A stretch of 64,000 bases of DNA from the NCBI RefSeq assembly GCF_907163125.1, contig NZ_OU015319.1, forward strand, positions 434,001 through 498,000, read 5' to 3'. The stretch is from Cloacibacterium caeni. Its GTDB lineage: Bacteria; Bacteroidota; Bacteroidia; Flavobacteriales; Weeksellaceae. The number at the start of each line of letters is the position of its first letter. The first letter of the stretch is position 1. The notes beneath the pieces are model-generated. The model saw nothing but the letters and a program-made list of their open reading frames with translations. It ran no database searches and was not told the origin of the DNA. Shown here piece by piece: positions 12,296 to 19,939 of this stretch. The position numbers and the translations under genes were made by a program.

Positions 12296-12392
12296 TTAGG
12301 TTAAGGAAAAGAGCAAGTGTCCTGCCTTTATCCTGTAAGTATCTAGCAAGTGTCTAGGATTTATAATCCGAATGTTGAAAACATAACCTTTT

Positions 12393-12808
12393 CATTCTGA
12401 ACGAAGCGCAGCAAAGTGAAGAATCTCTTTATGAAGAGAAAGATTTTCTAAAAGTGTAAATAGAAAAAACAGTGTACTTCATAGAACATCTATGATGTTC
12501 CTTAGAGAACTTAAAAACGCAATCATTTCACCAATACTTAGTGAACTTTGTGATAAAAATAAGTTACTTTATAGAGCCCTGTCGTTCTGAATGAAGCGTA
12601 GCAAAGTAAAGAATCTCTTTATGAAGAGAAATATTTTCTAAAAGTGTAAATAGAAAAACCTGTGTACTTCATAGAACATCTATGATGTTCCTTAGAGAAC
12701 TTAAAAACGAAATCATTTCACCAATACTTAGTGAACTTTGTGATAAAAATAATCCGTTTCATAGAGCTCTGTCATTCTGAACGAAGCGCAGCAAAGTGAA
12801 GAATCTCT
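12393..12808. repeat. 190-bp intergenic tandem repeat, locus 1
   Basis: Two full units (12393-12582, 12583-12772) and a third start (12773-12808), period 190 bp. Each unit opens with CATTCTGAACGAAGCGCAGC or a variant, a dispersed sequence familiar from flavobacterial intergenic DNA. It then carries a perfect inverted repeat GAACATC-TAT-GATGTTC (12484, 12674) and a TTAGTGAACTTTGTGATAAA segment. The same unit recurs at 21170. No gene is seen in 12279-12905. Confidence 0.85.
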
Positions 12809-12905: not shown

Positions 12906-12932
12906 AGCACAGCAATCTACGCTGTGCTTTTT
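12906..12932 (+). terminator. terminator-like hairpin with no gene before it
   Basis: Perfect 8-bp stem AGCACAGC/GCTGTGCT with a 7-base loop and a T-rich tail, on the plus strand 60 bp before the restriction enzyme ATG. No plus-strand gene lies within the preceding 3 kb. Confidence 0.55.
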
Positions 12933-12992: not shown

Positions 12993-15900
12993 ATGATTAA
13001 TCAATACCTTTCTAAACTTTCTCAATTATATTTTGCAGGTAATGCAACCGAACATTCTTATCGTGGAGATTTACAAATTCTGCTTCAGGAGATTCTAGGT
13101 AAAGAATTTTCTGTAATTAATGAGCCAACCCGCCAAAAATGTGGCGCTCCAGATTATATTGTTTCCAAAAAAGAAGTGCCTATTGGTTATATAGAAGCCA
13201 AAGATTTAAAATTAGGAATAGACCATAAGAAAAATAAACCACAGTTCGACCGTTATAGAAATGCACTCGAAAATCTAATTATTACCGATTATCTACATTT
13301 TGAATTCTATAAAAATGGCGAACTGAAAACCAAAATCGCTCTTGGCGAAATCTTGATGAACGAAATCGTTCCACATGAGAAAAACTTTGAAACATTCATT
13401 CATCTCATCAAAGATTTTGGGCAAGAAGTCTCGCAAACCATCAAAAATTCTGAAAAACTAGCAGAAATGATGGCTAATAAAGCTTTGTTAATGGCAGATG
13501 TGATACACAATGCTTTAGACGAAGACGATTTGGCGGAAAAAAATACAGAATTGGTACAGCAAAGAACAGCGTTTAAAGATATGCTGATTCATGATATTGA
13601 TAACCAACTTTTTGCAGATCTTTATTCTCAGACCATTGCTTACGGACTTTTCGTGGCACGTTATCACGACCCTACTTTGCCTACGTTTGATAGGATAGAA
13701 GCCGCCAATCTTATCCCGAAATCTAATCCTTTTTTGAGGAAACTTTTTCAGCATATTGCAGGTTTTGATTTAGATATACGTCTCAAATGGATTGTGGAAG
13801 AATTGGTGCAGATTTTCCTCGCTTCTGATGTGAAGGATATTATGAAAAACTTCGGGAAATCTACCAGACAAGAAGACCCCGTTATTCATTTCTACGAAAC
13901 ATTCTTGGGAAAATACAACCCAAAACTCCGTAAATCTCGCGGTGTTTGGTACACGCCACAACCTGTGGTGCAATTTATCGTACGTGCAGTAGATGATTTG
14001 CTGAAATCTGAATTTGGATTGTCTCAAGGTTTGGCAGATACTTCTAAAATCAAAAGCAAAATAGATTTTCACGGCAAAAAAGTAGATAAAGAATTTCACA
14101 GAGTGCAAGTTCTAGACCCTGCAACAGGTACAGGAACCTTTTTAGCCGAAACCATAAAACACATCTACGAAGAAAATTTTAAAAACATCAACGAGGGAAT
14201 TTGGCCTCAATATGTAGAAAAAGATCTCATTCCTAGAATTAATGGTTTTGAGCTCTTGATGGCGAGTTATTCTATGGCACATCTTAAACTAGATATGCTG
14301 CTTTCTGAAACAGGTTACGAAACCAACCAAGACCAGCGTTTTAATATTTTCTTGACCAATTCTCTGGAAGAACACCACAAAGATACAGGTACACTCTTTG
14401 CCAGTTGGCTTTCTGATGAATCTACTCTGGCAAACCAAATTAAACGAGATACACCTGTAATGTGCGTCATTGGAAATCCACCGTATTCAGGAATTTCTTC
14501 TAATAATGGAGAGTGGATTTCTAAATTAATTGATGATTATAAATATGTAGATGGAGTTCATTTTAATGAAAGAAAACATTGGTTGAATGATGATTATGTA
14601 AAATTTATAAGATTTGCTCAATATTTGGTAGAAAAAAATGGAGAGGGAATTGTTGCGTTTATCAATCCTCATGGTTATCTCGATAACCCTACTTTTAGAG
14701 GAATGCGTTGGAATTTATTAAAAACTTTTGATAAAATTTACACCATTGATTTGCATGGCAACAGCAAGAAAAAAGAAACTGCTCCAGATGGAAGTGCAGA
14801 CCAAAATGTGTTTGATATTATGCAAGGTGTTTCTATTAACCTTTTTGTAAAAACCAATAAAAAAGCTAAAAATGAATTAGGAAAAGTTTTTCATTATGAT
14901 TTGTTTGGGAAAAGAAATGATAAATACAATTTTTTACAAGAAAATTCATTAAGAACTATTGATTTTAAAGAATTGAAACCTGAAAAACCGTTTTTACTTT
15001 TTGTTAATAGAATAAATGAGGGAAGTTATTTTAATAATACATTTCAGGTTAATGATTTGTTTTTGAATAATGTAACAGGAACTCAAACAGGAAATGACAA
15101 GTTCTTATTTAATTACAATAAAGAAAATTTAGTTAAAGCTTTAAATGAAATTTCAACTAATGAAATTTCAGATTATATAAAAAGAATTGCATATAGACCT
15201 TTTGATTTTGGGCATATGTTCTTTATTAAAGGTTTGGGAGAAGAAAAATTTGGCATTGAAATTCCTAAATCTTATAGAACAAGATTTTCACTGATGAAAA
15301 ATATGCTTAAAGAAAATGTAAATTTGATTATTGGTAGACAAGGTCAGGTTGTTGGAAATATGCCTTGGAATTTGATTTTTTCTTCAAACGAAGTTGTTGA
15401 TTTGAATATGTTTTATCGTGGTGGAGGAAACGTTTTCCCGCTTTACCTTTACCAAGAACCCACTGCATTTGATGAGCGAGAAAGAATCCCTAATTTCAAT
15501 CCTAAAATTCTGGCAGAGATAGAAGCAAAACTCGGCATGAAATGCGTAGATGATGAGAACTTCGGCAAAGAAAACTTCGGCAAAGAAAACTTCGGCAAAG
15601 AGAACTTCAGCAAAGAGAACTTCGGCAAAGAGAACTTCGGCAAAGAGAACTTCGGGAAAGAGAACTTCGGCAAAGAGAACTTCGGCAAAGAGAACTTCGG
15701 CAAAGAGAACTTCGGCAAAGAGAACTTCGGGAAAGAGAACTTCGGCAAAGAGAACTTCGGCAAAGAGAACTTCGGCAAAGAGAACTTCGGCAAAGTTTTA
15801 AACTTTGCCGAAGTTGAGAACACTCCAGAGGTTGAGAACACTCCAGAGGTTGAGAACACTTCAGAAGTTGAGAACACTTCAGAGGTTGAGAACACTCCAG

Positions 15901-16601
15901 AGGTTGAGAACACTCCTGAAGCTAAGAACGCTTCAAAAGCTGAGAGTAAAAAAACAAACTTTTCTCCACTCAATCTTTTAGATTACATCTACGCCGTTTT
16001 ACATTCCCCAAAATACAGAGAAACCTATAAAGAATTCCTAAAAATAGATTTCCCTAGAGTTCCTTTTCCAGATGCTGTAGGTACAAGTCGTGACTTGTCC
16101 ACTATTCAAAAGAATTTTTGGGATTTGGTACAATTAGGTTCAGAAATCAGAAAACTCCATCTTTTAGAAGAAATTGCGAATAAAGACCTCCAAACCAAAT
16201 ATCCTATTGCTGGAAATAACGTGGTAGCAAAACCTACTTTTGTAAAAACTGAAAACTTTAGCAAAGAGAACTTCGGCAAAGAGAACTTCGGCAAAGAGAA
16301 CTTCAGCAAACAGAACTTCGGCAAAGTTTCAAACTTTGCCGAAGTTAAGAGCGCTCCAGAAGTTGAAAACCTCACAGGAAAAGTCTTCATCAACGAAACC
16401 CAGTATTTCGACAACGTACCAGAAACCGCATGGAATTTCTACATTGGTGGTTATCAACCCGCGCAAAAATGGCTAAAAGACCGTAAAGAAAGAGAACTTT
16501 CTTATGAAGACATTCTTCATTACCAAAAAATCATCTACGCCCTTACCAAAACAGATGAACTGATGAAGAAGATAGATGATATTTGCTTCACCGAAGTTTA
16601 A
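12993..16601 (+). CDS. single-chain restriction-modification enzyme (type IIG-like, type ISP specificity domain) with inserted NFGKE repeats
   Basis: Predicted to combine DNA cleavage, N6-adenine methylation and target recognition in one protein of 1202 residues. N-terminal nuclease: PD-(D/E)xK pattern with Asp54 (A-P-D-Y-I) and Glu68-x-Lys70 (Y-I-E-A-K). A helical connector follows. The methyltransferase has motif [10 protein letters not shown] at 375-383 and catalytic N-P-P-Y at 495-498. The C-terminal third matches type ISP specificity domains (Y-I-Y-A-V-L-H-S-P, then [15 protein letters not shown]). No helicase is present, unlike LlaGI/LlaBIII. Two linkers are filled by repeat-coded sequence: about residues 856-983 (16 NFGKE units plus VENTPE units) and 1088-1124. 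Start chosen at the ATG at 12993, since the longer frame begins with hydrophobic leader-like sequence. No partner genes are adjacent. Activity with the inserts is unknown. Confidence 0.88.
15558..15941 (+). repeat. in-frame repeat module 1 in the restriction enzyme
   Basis: Sixteen direct 15-bp units AACTTCGGCAAAGAG (15558-15797), coding NFGKE, come first. A 3-base spacer and one perfect inverted unit AACTTTGCCGAAGTT (15801-15815) follow. Then come six clear 18-bp units GAGAACACTCCAGAGGTT (15816-15923), coding ENTPEV, and one decayed unit. Units 7-11 and 12-16 have the same variant order (one GGG then four GGC), which points to a recent 75-bp duplication. The sequence after the array starts GAGAGTAAA, as it does at 18401. 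Confidence 0.95.
16254..16364 (+). repeat. in-frame repeat module 2 in the restriction enzyme
   Basis: Five direct 15-mers (16254-16328), spacer TCA, perfect inverted unit (16332-16346) and one 18-bp unit. Same orientation, frame and order as module 1, but at a second linker of the protein. Confidence 0.92.
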
Positions 16602-16610
16602 AACTTAAAT

Positions 16611-16817
16611 AGCTTCAGCAAAGAGAACTTCGGGAAAGAGAACTTCAGCAAAGAGAACTTCGGCAAAGTTTTAAACTTTGCCGAAGTTGAAGAAGTTAAA
16701 AAAGTTCCAAACTTTGCCGAAGTTGAAGAAGTTAAAAAAGTTCTAAACTTTGCCGAAGTTTAAGAAGTTAAAAAAGTTCTAAACTTTGCCGAAGTTTAAG
16801 AAGTTAAAAAAGTTCCA
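16611..16817. repeat. intergenic repeat module A
   Basis: Nine bases after the restriction enzyme stop. Four direct 15-mers (16611-16670, the first degenerate), spacer TTA, then inverted units at 16674, 16710, 16746 and 16782 with a 36-bp period. Each 36-bp unit is the 15-mer plus a GAAGAAGTTAAAAAAG-type spacer. A truncated inverted unit joins a copy of the RAYT gene end at the shared sequence ACTTTG (16818-16823). Confidence 0.9.
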
Positions 16818-17249
16818 ACTTTGCAGACATTGATAATTTTAAATTTTGTCACCAGAGAATTGTGGAAATTTAACTTCGGCAAAGAGAACTTCAGCAAAGA
16901 GAACTTCAGCAAAGGGAACTTCAGCAAAGGGAACTTCGGCAAAGAGAACTTCAGCAAAGGGAACTTCAGGAAAGAGAACTTCGGGAAAGAGAACTTCGGG
17001 AAAGAGAACTTCGGCAAAGTTCCAAACTTTGCCGAAGTTGAAGAAGTTAAAAAAGTTCTAAACTTTGCCGAAGTTGAAAAAGTTCTAAACTTTGCCGAAG
17101 TTGAAGAAGTTAAAAAAAAGTTCTAAACTTTGCCGAAGTTGAAGAAGTTAAAAAAAAGTTCCAACTTTGCCGAAGTTTAAGAAGTTAAAAAAGTTCCAAA
17201 CTTTGCCGAAGTTGAAGAAGTTAAAAAAGTTCCAAACTTTGCCGAAGTT
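16818..17249. repeat. intergenic repeat module B with a copy of the RAYT gene end
   Basis: Begins with a 54-bp copy of the RAYT 3' end (16818-16871, one mismatch to the real gene). Ten direct 15-mers follow (16872-17021), then spacer CCA and seven inverted units (starts 17025, 17061, 17088, 17126, 17163, 17199, 17235). Ends 30 bp before the RAYT start codon. Open frames reading NFGKE or TSAKR here arise from the stop-free repeat and are not taken as genes. Confidence 0.9.
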
Positions 17250-17279
17250 GATTAAAAAAACTAAAATCATATAACTAAA

Positions 17280-17882
17280 ATGGAAATAAGAAGAGACCAT
17301 CTTGAGCCAGAATTTTTTTATCACATCTATAACAGAGGAATTAACAGTGAAGATGTTTATAAAAACAAAGATAATTATTTGTATTTTTTAAAAAAGGCAA
17401 AAGAATTTTTATTGCCAGTTGCTGATATTTATGCTTATTGCCTTATGAAAAATCATTTTCACTTGTTGGTAAGAATAAAACCAGAAGTAGAATTAAAAAC
17501 TTTTTTTGATTCTCAGAATAAAAATACTAAAATAAGAGCTGAGGGGATTCATGCGTTACATTCTATTGTTAGCAAGCAATTTGCAAAATTAATGAGTAGT
17601 TATACACAAGGTTTTAATAAATATTATAATAGACATGGTAGTCTATTTGAGACCCCTTTTAAAAGAATAAGAATAACGGATGAGGTTTATCTTAGAAACT
17701 GTATAATTTATATTCATCAAAATTCTTTAGATATTAATGAGCAATTAGAAAAGTATGATTTTTCTTCCTATAAAATTATTTTATCAAACTCTAAAACAGA
17801 ATTAAAAAGAGAAGAAGTAATTTCATACTTTGAAGACATTGATAATTTTAAATTTTGTCACCAGAGAATTGTGGAAATTTAA
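17280..17882 (+). CDS. REP-associated tyrosine transposase (RAYT, IS200-like HUH/Y1 family)
   Basis: A single-strand DNA transposase-type protein, 200 residues, the normal size for the family. The HUH motif is at residues 58-63 (N-H-F-H-L-L, His59 and His61). The likely catalytic tyrosine is Tyr108 in S-Y-T-Q-G-F-N-K-Y-Y-N-R-H-G, followed by the typical G-S-L-F...F-K-R and Y-I-H-Q-N-S. Proteins of this type are known in other bacteria to bind and nick palindromic REP sequences. The gene is bracketed by repeat arrays: seven inverted units end 30 bp upstream, and its own stop codon overlaps the first 15-mer of module C. Two further copies of its last 54 bp lie at 16818 and 18207. No flanking insertion-sequence ends are evident. 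The frame is intact, so the protein may be active. Confidence 0.9.
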   Translation: MEIRRDHLEPEFFYHIYNRGINSEDVYKNKDNYLYFLKKAKEFLLPVADIYAYCLMKNHFHLLVRIKPEVELKTFFDSQNKNTKIRAEGIHALHSIVSKQFAKLMSSYTQGFNKYYNRHGSLFETPFKRIRITDEVYLRNCIIYIHQNSLDINEQLEKYDFSSYKIILSNSKTELKREEVISYFEDIDNFKFCHQRIVEI

Positions 17883-18206
17883 CTTCAGCAAAGAGAACTT
17901 CGGTAAAGAGAACTTCGGCAAAGAGAACTTCAGCAAAGAGAACTTCAGCAAAGAGAACTTTGGGAAAGAGAACTTCGGGAAAGAGAACTTCGGGAAAGAG
18001 AACTTCGGGAAAGAGAATTTCAACAAAGAGAACTTCAGCAAAGGGAACTTCAGCAAAGGGAACTTCGGGAAAGAGAACTTCGGGAAAGAGAACTTCGGGA
18101 AAGAGAACTTCAGCAAACAGAACTTCAGCAAAGAGAACTTCAGCAAAGAGAACTTCGGCAAAGTTTTAAACTTTGCCGAAGTTGAAGAAGTTAAAAAAGA
18201 GTTCCA
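17827..18206. repeat. intergenic repeat module C (follows the intact RAYT gene)
   Basis: The native RAYT 3' end (17827-17880) runs directly into nineteen direct 15-mers (17881-18165). Spacer TTA and one inverted unit (18169-18183) follow, then a truncated unit that joins the next RAYT tail copy at ACTTTG. Units vary mainly in the third codon-like triplet (GGC, AGC, GGG) and in GAG/GGG/CAG. Confidence 0.92.
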
Positions 18207-18409
18207 ACTTTGAAGACATTGATAATTTTAAATTTTGTCACCAGAGAATTGTGGAAATTTAACTTCAGCAAAGAGAACTCCGGGAAAGAGAACTCCGGGA
18301 AAGAGAACTTCGGCAAAGTTTAAAACTTTGCCGAAGTTGAAAAGCTCCAAACTTTGCCGAAGTTGAAGAAGTTAAAAAAGCTCCAAACTTTGCCGAAGTT
18401 GAGAGTAAA
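18207..18409. repeat. intergenic repeat module D with a copy of the RAYT gene end
   Basis: A 54-bp RAYT tail copy (18207-18260) identical to the gene is followed by four direct 15-mers (18261-18320). Spacer TAA and inverted units at 18324, 18350 and 18386 follow, ending in GAGAGTAAA. Confidence 0.9.
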
Positions 18410-18536: not shown

Positions 18537-18684
18537 AAAAATCTCTCCCTTTAGGGTCGGGGTAAAAGATTTTTTATTTATAGGCAGAGAAAAAGGTTTT
18601 CTAGGCTCGCAAAAGAAACCCCTCATCATTTAGATCATTATAAAAAATCTCTCCCTTTAGGGTCGGGGTAAAAGATTTTTTATT
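18537..18684. repeat. pair of 42-bp hairpin repeats
   Basis: Two near-identical copies (18537-18578 and 18643-18684) containing CTCCCTTTAGGGTCGGGG, each closed by an AAAAATCT/AGATTTTT inverted pair. The stretch from 18410 to 18857 has no gene. It also contains GGATTTGTAATCCG (18430-18443), a short palindromic sequence with relatives at 12358 and 21134. Confidence 0.75.
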
Positions 18685-18785
18685 TCCAACTCCTTGCCTG
18701 AGCACAGGCCAAAGGTCTGCGAACGTAGTTCACGAAGCCCAGTGCCTGAACTTGTAGAACGCAGGGAAAAGAAAGTTATGATCTC

Positions 18786-19884: not shown

Positions 19885-19939
19885 TCTCGTGTCAGTCCCG
19901 TGTCAATCCCGTGTCAATCCCGTGTCAATCTCGTGTCAA
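19885..19939. repeat. five 11-bp tandem repeats
   Basis: Five head-to-tail units of TCCCGTGTCAA (first and last with TCTCG, the first ending CAG). They lie about 210 bp upstream of the 18858 gene promoter. Confidence 0.9.

Follow-up and report, generated by a model that had tools for sequence, protein, structure and literature searches.

In the specificity protein EcoR124I HsdS, the number of in-frame spacer repeats varies and sets the spacing of the target. Genes can also read through palindromic DNA: Rickettsia palindromic elements (RPEs) and intragenic repetitive extragenic palindromic (REP) sequences are in-frame palindromic insertions that have struck some genes twice, and different REPs occupy about one recB site in two Xanthomonas species (as outlined in the available part of PMC3733652). 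PARCEL repeats, according to the abstract of PMC2996958, are tandem palindromic coding repeats that are tied to mobile DNA, encode a 25-residue amphipathic motif and lie in surface proteins in some taxa. Here we describe a 64,000-nucleotide stretch of Cloacibacterium caeni (NZ_OU015319.1, positions 434,001 to 498,000; the window), in which two repeat modules are written in frame into a predicted Type IIG restriction-modification (R-M) gene, and arrays of the same repeat surround a gene for a protein resembling REP-associated tyrosine transposases (RAYTs) downstream. From comparison with homologs we conclude that permissive C-terminal linkers of these enzymes probably capture palindromic mobile elements repeatedly, including hairpins of the RAYT type in the window.

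Two in-frame modules in a Type IIG enzyme

A preliminary description of the window had placed two modules within one gene, in the same frame and orientation and in its C-terminal specificity region, and analysis of repeats and open reading frames (ORFs) bore this out. The gene and its parts are as follows.

12993–16601, plus strand: Type IIG R-M enzyme, 1202 residues from ATG (Pfam, PADLOC)
14880–15491, plus strand: target-recognition part, swapped between sibling species (identity about 30% in the middle and 50–62% at the edges; limits approximate)
15555–15795, plus strand: module 1 at site 1, 16 copies of a 15-bp NFGKE unit (Tandem Repeats Finder)
15783–15815, strand not assigned: module 1 hinge, a 33-bp REP-like palindrome coding NFGKVxNFAEV
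15813–15935, plus strand: module 1 tail, 18-bp VENTPE units decaying toward the 3' end
15960–16253, plus strand: conserved block separating site 1 and site 2 (YIYAVLHSP ...)
16251–16370, plus strand: module 2 at site 2, five NFGKE-type units, hinge and short tail
16314–16346, strand not assigned: module 2 hinge, a 33-bp REP-like palindrome coding NFGKVxNFAEV

Tandem Repeats Finder returned 16.1 copies of GAGAACTTCGGCAAA at 15555–15795 (96% match) and 5.8 copies of the 18-bp VENTPE unit at 15813–15916 for module 1, and 4.4 copies of the 15-mer at 16261–16326 for module 2. The 33-bp hinge has 16-bp arms and a 1-bp spacer. Neither module contains a stop, and the 15-mer is free of stops in all six frames.

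When the R-M gene was aligned with 63 homologous loci (64 rows in all), repeat-free homologs were continuous across both sites, as anticipated once the modules are removed. Site 1 measured 20 residues in 29 rows and 8–9 in 15 rows versus 148 in the window, and site 2 measured 17 residues in 28 rows versus 60. These lengths support the interpretation that the modules are insertions relative to homologs, with the in-frame character of RPEs. An AlphaFold2 model (mean predicted local distance difference test score, pLDDT, 66.8; predicted template modelling score 0.61) gave both inserts a pLDDT of <50 (model residues 593–723 and 833–860) between better-predicted parts, and in this model the modules look like disordered linkers. 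The earlier suggestion that the repeats act as neutral peptide linkers thus agrees with the predicted disorder, while their harmlessness is put in question by four damaged carriers described below.

The R-M protein, whose longer ORF reading starts with GTG at 12924, matched Pfam Type_ISP_C (2.1e-58) and N6_Mtase (9.6e-14), and PADLOC assigned it to REase_MTase_IIG (1025 bits). One chain therefore appears to combine an N6-adenine methyltransferase with a specificity domain, as expected of Type IIG enzymes. The structure of an insert-free homolog matched LlaBIII, DrdV and LlaGI best (Z 23–25 over about 580 residues, root-mean-square deviation 14), and no SF2 helicase-like ATPase of the kind found in Type ISP enzymes was detected in the 1202-residue protein by Pfam at E up to 0.01. 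Site 1 lies before YIYAVLHSP, and both sites are in the C-terminal specificity region. In a weak profile alignment, site 1 falls just before LlaBIII residue 1404, in the late core subdomain, and site 2 falls in the guide; neither coincides with the base-reading loops of LlaGI/LlaBIII.

Inserts at the same sites in related enzymes

We scored as insertions all stretches of at least 12 residues relative to columns filled in 60% of the rows. Seven rows carried one at site 1 and 17 at site 2; elsewhere there were six single rows at six positions, two of them adjacent. The inserts of two further genomes, G067 and G401, fall outside these counts because their aligned ORF is only the N-terminal part (G000 is the genome of the window, other G numbers are the genomes compared, and L numbers are the loci or DNA stretches compared). 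The distribution suggests, from the alignment, that mobile DNA has landed repeatedly at site 1 and site 2.

Repeat-like inserts were found in about 14 genes and fell into roughly ten kinds, a classification made partly by eye. In G174, site 1 holds three TTCGACAAGCTCAGT units and site 2 holds tandem units of 21 bp. GTCAT...ATGAC palindromic elements occupy site 2 in G788, G839, G691b and G723, a palindrome with 16-bp arms lies at site 2 in G754, and a short repeat lies at site 1 in G012; G820, G813b and G691 have peptides that look repeat-like by eye. CCCCTCC...GGAGGGG repeats, with or without a DUF559 domain, occur in G067, G401 and G752. Pfam identified DUF559 at site 1 in G067 (1e-29) and G752 (9.7e-33) and at site 2 in G401 (2.5e-25). 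Inverted repeats of about 45 bp (G067), 33 bp (G752) and 39 bp (G401) enclose the domain, and all three inserts are read through in frame. From repeat to repeat these inserts span 587, 440 and 519 bp (G067, G752 and G401); since only one span is a multiple of three, flanking bases must also maintain the frame. No intein or other self-splicing domain was found in the three inserts, for which Pfam gave only DUF559 and MTES_1575. Besides its DUF559 element, G067 carries a single repeat at site 2. In the same genome (L290 1719–2759), an ORF for a YhcG/DUF1016 PDDEXK nuclease separates the methyltransferase and recognition parts of the Type IIG gene.

Several of these elements also occur apart from R-M genes. 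Against the collected DNA, 4 of 19 inserts from other homologs (G723, G788, G691b and G754) matched outside R-M genes, versus 2 of 45 controls; many contigs matched by G788, G691b and G754 had been collected using those very patterns, and the independent ones among the listed matches are L247, L305 and L221, together with L347 and L355 for G723. Five element patterns matched viral contigs (7, 10, 3, 28 and 43 stretches), and tblastn did not find this Type IIG R-M gene in those viral stretches (20 and 69 loci). The site-2 element of G067 had no plasmid match, and the G067 element and the G174 double unit had no viral match.

Other elements were found mainly inside methylase genes when copies were sought with strict patterns, which miss diverged copies and return copies within one gene that are not independent. 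All four exact TCCCCTCCNNNGGAGGGGTG matches in G067 lie within the Type IIG gene. The exact palindrome of G401 likewise matched four times in methylase genes, three times in the Type IIG gene (once in its methyltransferase part) and once in a second methylase ORF (Pfam N6_N4_Mtase; L433 52–1758), where the CCCCTCC palindrome is in frame (SPPLEGCPKDGVV). In G174, three of four copies are in site 1 and one is intergenic, and the only copy in G012 is in site 1.

DUF559 matched 46 plasmid and 2 phage records as well, and eight places among them were examined. Hairpins with 8-bp arms were present in 8 of 16 flanks of these genes versus 1 of 15 controls. At one of the eight places, on a plasmid of the cyanobacterium Pseudanabaena galeata, the domain lies in frame within an R-M gene (L447 1–4866; NZ_CP112876.1 151946–156811), at residues 373–474 of a 1621-residue protein matching Pfam Eco57I (2.7e-25) and MmeI_Mtase (9.9e-13). 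It has a hairpin on each side, and three further CCCCTTCTCCC hairpins follow later in the gene, all read through. The other seven places are not in an R-M gene according to the available annotation, the two phage records being unannotated. Another of the eight sits with sufB on one side and sufC on the other, which shows that DUF559 is also housed outside R-M genes. On two cyanobacterial plasmids (L439 834–1953 and L440 1471–3312), the DUF559 gene adjoins a gene annotated DUF1156.

The exact palindrome copies of G067 and G401, all inside methylase genes, are the basis for a broader and tentative reading, in which R-M genes would be a favoured refuge of coding-transparent mobile elements that are translated without splicing and ride between hosts. 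The elements entering the linkers of travelling defence enzymes would then be palindromes that enclose a nuclease (REP-DUF559-REP) or lie next to a RAYT. We consider this possible but less likely than not; the in-frame, hairpin-flanked DUF559 in the P. galeata plasmid R-M gene speaks for it.

Downstream arrays, sibling species and the RAYT link

The preliminary description had also noted that the same 15-mers fill the intergenic DNA around a RAYT gene. We found this to be so: they occupy 16613–16668, 16872–17019 and 17881–18163 around the ORF at 17280–17882.

16613–16824, plus strand: intergenic array A, 15-mers, palindrome at 16656–16688 and 36-bp units
16872–17265, plus strand: intergenic array B, 15-mers, palindrome at 17007–17039 and 36-bp units with frame breaks
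17280–17882, plus strand: RAYT-like HUH/Y1 protein, 200 residues
17881–18183, plus strand: intergenic array C, with palindrome at 18151–18183
18261–18408, plus strand: intergenic array D, with palindrome at 18306–18338; its far end is near the endpoint of the G002 deletion
16827–16877, 17836–17886 (the gene itself) and 18216–18266, plus strand: 51-bp repeat comprising the terminus of the RAYT-like gene and the first array bases, each copy heading an array

The 33-bp palindrome thus has four further copies 3' of the R-M gene, at 16656, 17007, 18151 and 18306, and the intergenic arrays are oriented as the in-gene modules are. The in-gene modules and the intergenic arrays have the 15-mers and hinge in common and differ in the units after the hinge, which are the 18-bp VENTPE tail in the gene and 36-bp NFAEVEEVKKVP units in the intergenic DNA. 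The latter are usually 36 bp, with some units of 26, 27, 37 or 38 bp, and the NFGKE frame of the four arrays contains 2, 3, 0 and 1 stops. Downstream of array D, a 43-bp sequence (AAAAATCTCTCCCTTTAGGGTCGGGG...) is present in two exact copies at 18537–18685, with related copies in G002, and an 11-bp tandem repeat, CGTGTCAATCC, has 4.7 copies at 19888–19939.

An exact 21-base array pattern gave 36 matches in the genome, all at the window locus and none in several unrelated genes as for RPEs; as the reversed control gave 0, chance is excluded. Allowing one mismatch, the array was present in 3 of 296 family genomes (G000, G002 and G006), all of one genus, and it had no plasmid match and no viral match. 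Of the hinge-type palindrome there are six copies at the locus and one elsewhere (C1:1787556, between two convergent genes), so the dispersal of canonical REPs was not seen. The array is therefore a locally amplified sequence and not a repeat spread across the genome. The spread into genes and intergenic DNA at large that had been proposed is therefore not what we observe, the array being confined to the R-M gene and the DNA immediately downstream. Absence of the repeats from other loci, which the preliminary description had itself named as counting against it, was largely found, with the one palindrome as the exception.

The two sibling genomes resemble the window protein unevenly (longer ORF numbering). 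Identity of G006 and G002 to it is 99% over residues 31–390 and 95–100% over 391–500, dips more mildly to 84% and 67% over 501–620 in the methyltransferase part, falls to about 30% over 701–825, and is again 95–100% over 864–884 before module 1, high identity resuming about 34 codons before the module. The siblings differ in unit number by whole 15-mers: module 1 has 16 NFGKE-type units in G000, 7 in G006 and 4 in G002, and module 2 has 5 in G000 and 8 in G006. After module 1, the conserved parts of G006 are 100% identical to the window protein, and its gene contains an in-frame TAA. In G002, module 1 continues directly into the distal end of array D and the sequence that follows it, and the conserved C-terminal part and the RAYT gene are gone, a structure best explained by a deletion between arrays. 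Similar DNA to a 190-bp unit (TCATTCTGAACGAAGCGCAGC...), present in 2.2 copies upstream of the window R-M gene (12392–12808), occurs elsewhere in the G002 and G006 stretches.

Such a replaced recognition part between nearly identical sequences, with identity returning shortly before module 1, together with the fusion in G002, could mean that the arrays serve recombination at the R-M gene. We judge this unlikely. R-M genes that lack repeats also commonly exchange their recognition domains, the border of the exchange here precedes the array and lies in ordinary conserved sequence, and the sole array-linked event seen, in G002, truncated the gene.

The product of the RAYT-like gene scores 23.5 bits against Pfam Y1_Tnp (cut-off 23), which indicates a Y1 HUH transposase domain, and 27.6 bits against NCBIfam REP_Tyr_transpos, under the cut-off of 80. 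Its NHFH and YIHQNS are near, not exact, to the motifs printed for RAYT subclass 2.6, a Bacteroidetes group described as flanked by atypical structures (available part of PMC6006769). RAYT matches were present in 133 of the 296 family genomes, and we took the 30 best-scoring loci, 28 of which are not the G000 or G006 copies. Hairpins with arms of at least 12 bp occurred within 350 bp in 23 of these 28 relatives, on both sides in 11, amounting to 34 of 56 flanks versus 2 of 60 controls placed 800–1150 bp away at all 30 loci. The 33-mer takes the form AAC[CT]T[TC]GNC[AG]A[AG]GTT, three bases and the reverse complement, and its 15-base motif was found 44 times in 100,443 bp of the 28 RAYT loci versus 19 times in 1,162,050 bp of the R-M loci. 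By eye, the 12 bases before each RAYT-flank hairpin share no GT[AG]G foot of the kind seen in canonical REPs.

RAYT relatives in other genera therefore have the same type of 33-bp hairpin at their flanks, and the link between the window repeat and the RAYT family that had been claimed is, on sequence grounds, real: cognate-type palindromes flank both the window gene and its relatives. The hairpins at the R-M locus were likely placed by the RAYT. Tandem arrays are not a general trait of RAYT relatives, as 7 of the 28 other loci had any tandem-repeat row and none had an array like that of the window. We also considered the hinge to be an ordinary terminator, as one similar palindrome lies between convergent genes, yet the RAYT association is the better fit.

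These hairpins bear on a further explanation, in which the repeats were born in the gene by slippage and tandem duplication of a low-complexity linker and recombined downstream, with the RAYT as a bystander. The restriction of the array to the R-M gene and adjacent DNA and the shared orientation of the intergenic arrays would fit such an origin, but the 33-mer has the form of hairpins flanking RAYT relatives in array-free genomes, and slippage would not account for other homologs carrying palindromes of unrelated sequence, or DUF559 genes, at these two sites. We find this origin quite improbable.

Proposed permissive linkers compared with known systems

Capture by permissive linkers is the most economical account of these data. 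Site 1 and site 2 would be linkers that accept extra peptide of widely varying length, and palindromic mobile or dispersed elements landing there in a stop-free phase would be kept, while those landing in most other parts of the gene would be lost. In the window, hairpins of the RAYT-flank type would have entered both linkers, whether by RAYT catalysis or by recombination, and the half-hairpin 15-mers would have multiplied in tandem within the linkers and the downstream DNA through slippage or unequal exchange, yielding near-neutral peptide. More widely, horizontally moving R-M genes may have been entered repeatedly by whatever palindromic elements were at hand. The modules are absent from repeat-free homologs and predicted to be disordered, their hinge resembles RAYT-flank hairpins, and unrelated inserts recur at both sites.

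Several observations weigh against this account. Among 60 named homologs, a set in which the search ranking favoured insert-poor genes, three rows (L171, L208 and L161) carry 73–85 residues of related-looking charged sequence at a third position, following residue 853 in the longer ORF numbering. A test for perfect palindromes separated 5 of 21 inserts from same-gene intervals at p<0.05, a number that rises to 8 at p<0.1; the others were assigned on inspection, from tandem structure or from a DUF559 domain, which is why the classification is partly visual. The long site-2 inserts of G722, G660, G733 and G767 resemble native lineage-specific extensions, and one palindrome of G401 is found away from both sites, within the methyltransferase part. 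Four of 16 carriers (the 14 repeat-insert genes plus G002 and G006) are damaged: G006 by its TAA, G002 by loss of the 3' end, G067 by the splitting ORF and G401 by a frame change. The inserts may therefore not be harmless, and a cost is possible. No empty linker was seen in the genus of the window.

That the inserts tune or add function, through recognition-domain spacing or a second nuclease activity from DUF559, is very improbable: although the sites lie within the specificity region, the helical bundle in the LlaGI guide has been compared to the Type I spacer and the DUF559 domains score well over the Pfam cut-off, the guide of LlaGI/LlaBIII is described as having no part in target recognition (available part of PMC4872093), the window inserts are predicted to be disordered, and the inserts share neither sequence nor length. 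The tuning of target spacing proposed at the outset found no support, as the weak alignment places the sites off the base-reading loops and the siblings replace the recognition domain itself.

If linkers of these enzymes are permissive, they offer a natural experiment on where proteins tolerate foreign peptide and how repeats persist in compact genomes. Known in-frame palindromic elements are mostly scattered cases, whereas here two positions have been hit many times by unrelated elements. A consensus hairpin was obtained for a Bacteroidetes RAYT group akin to those whose palindromes have been called atypical, in two phyla host R-M genes read through nuclease genes that are enclosed by inverted repeats, and the map of tolerated sites may be useful for restriction enzyme engineering.

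Like LlaGI/LlaBIII (Type ISP) and DrdV, the enzyme family combines a methyltransferase with a C-terminal specificity fold, as judged from the insert-free homolog; unlike them, the window enzyme has no helicase part that we could find and two repeat-expanded linkers. It shares with EcoR124I HsdS a variable number of in-frame repeats in a specificity protein, but the role of such repeats in spacing has no support in the window enzyme. RPEs and intragenic REPs are scattered over several genes per genome (available part of PMC3733652), whereas here one family has two linkers with unrelated elements and a local tandem array of half-palindromes. As in RAYT/TnpA-REP subclass 2.6, in the portion of PMC6006769 at hand, there is a Y1 protein with flanking atypical palindromes and no GT[AG]G foot; the differences are a palindrome and derived 15-mers inside a neighbouring gene and near-nil copies elsewhere. 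PARCEL has in common with the window tandem palindromic coding repeats and a link to mobile DNA, and differs in that neither a RAYT nor an R-M gene is mentioned in its abstract (PMC2996958). The open-access literature, a scope outside which most subscription papers fall, yielded no description of repeats within these linkers of R-M enzymes. In-frame REPs in genes, even different REPs near one recB site, are already published (PMC3733652, in the part available). As far as the open-access literature shows, what is new is the two-site R-M hotspot, the variety of elements at it, the in-frame DUF559 elements, and the half-palindrome arrays common to the gene and the RAYT locus.

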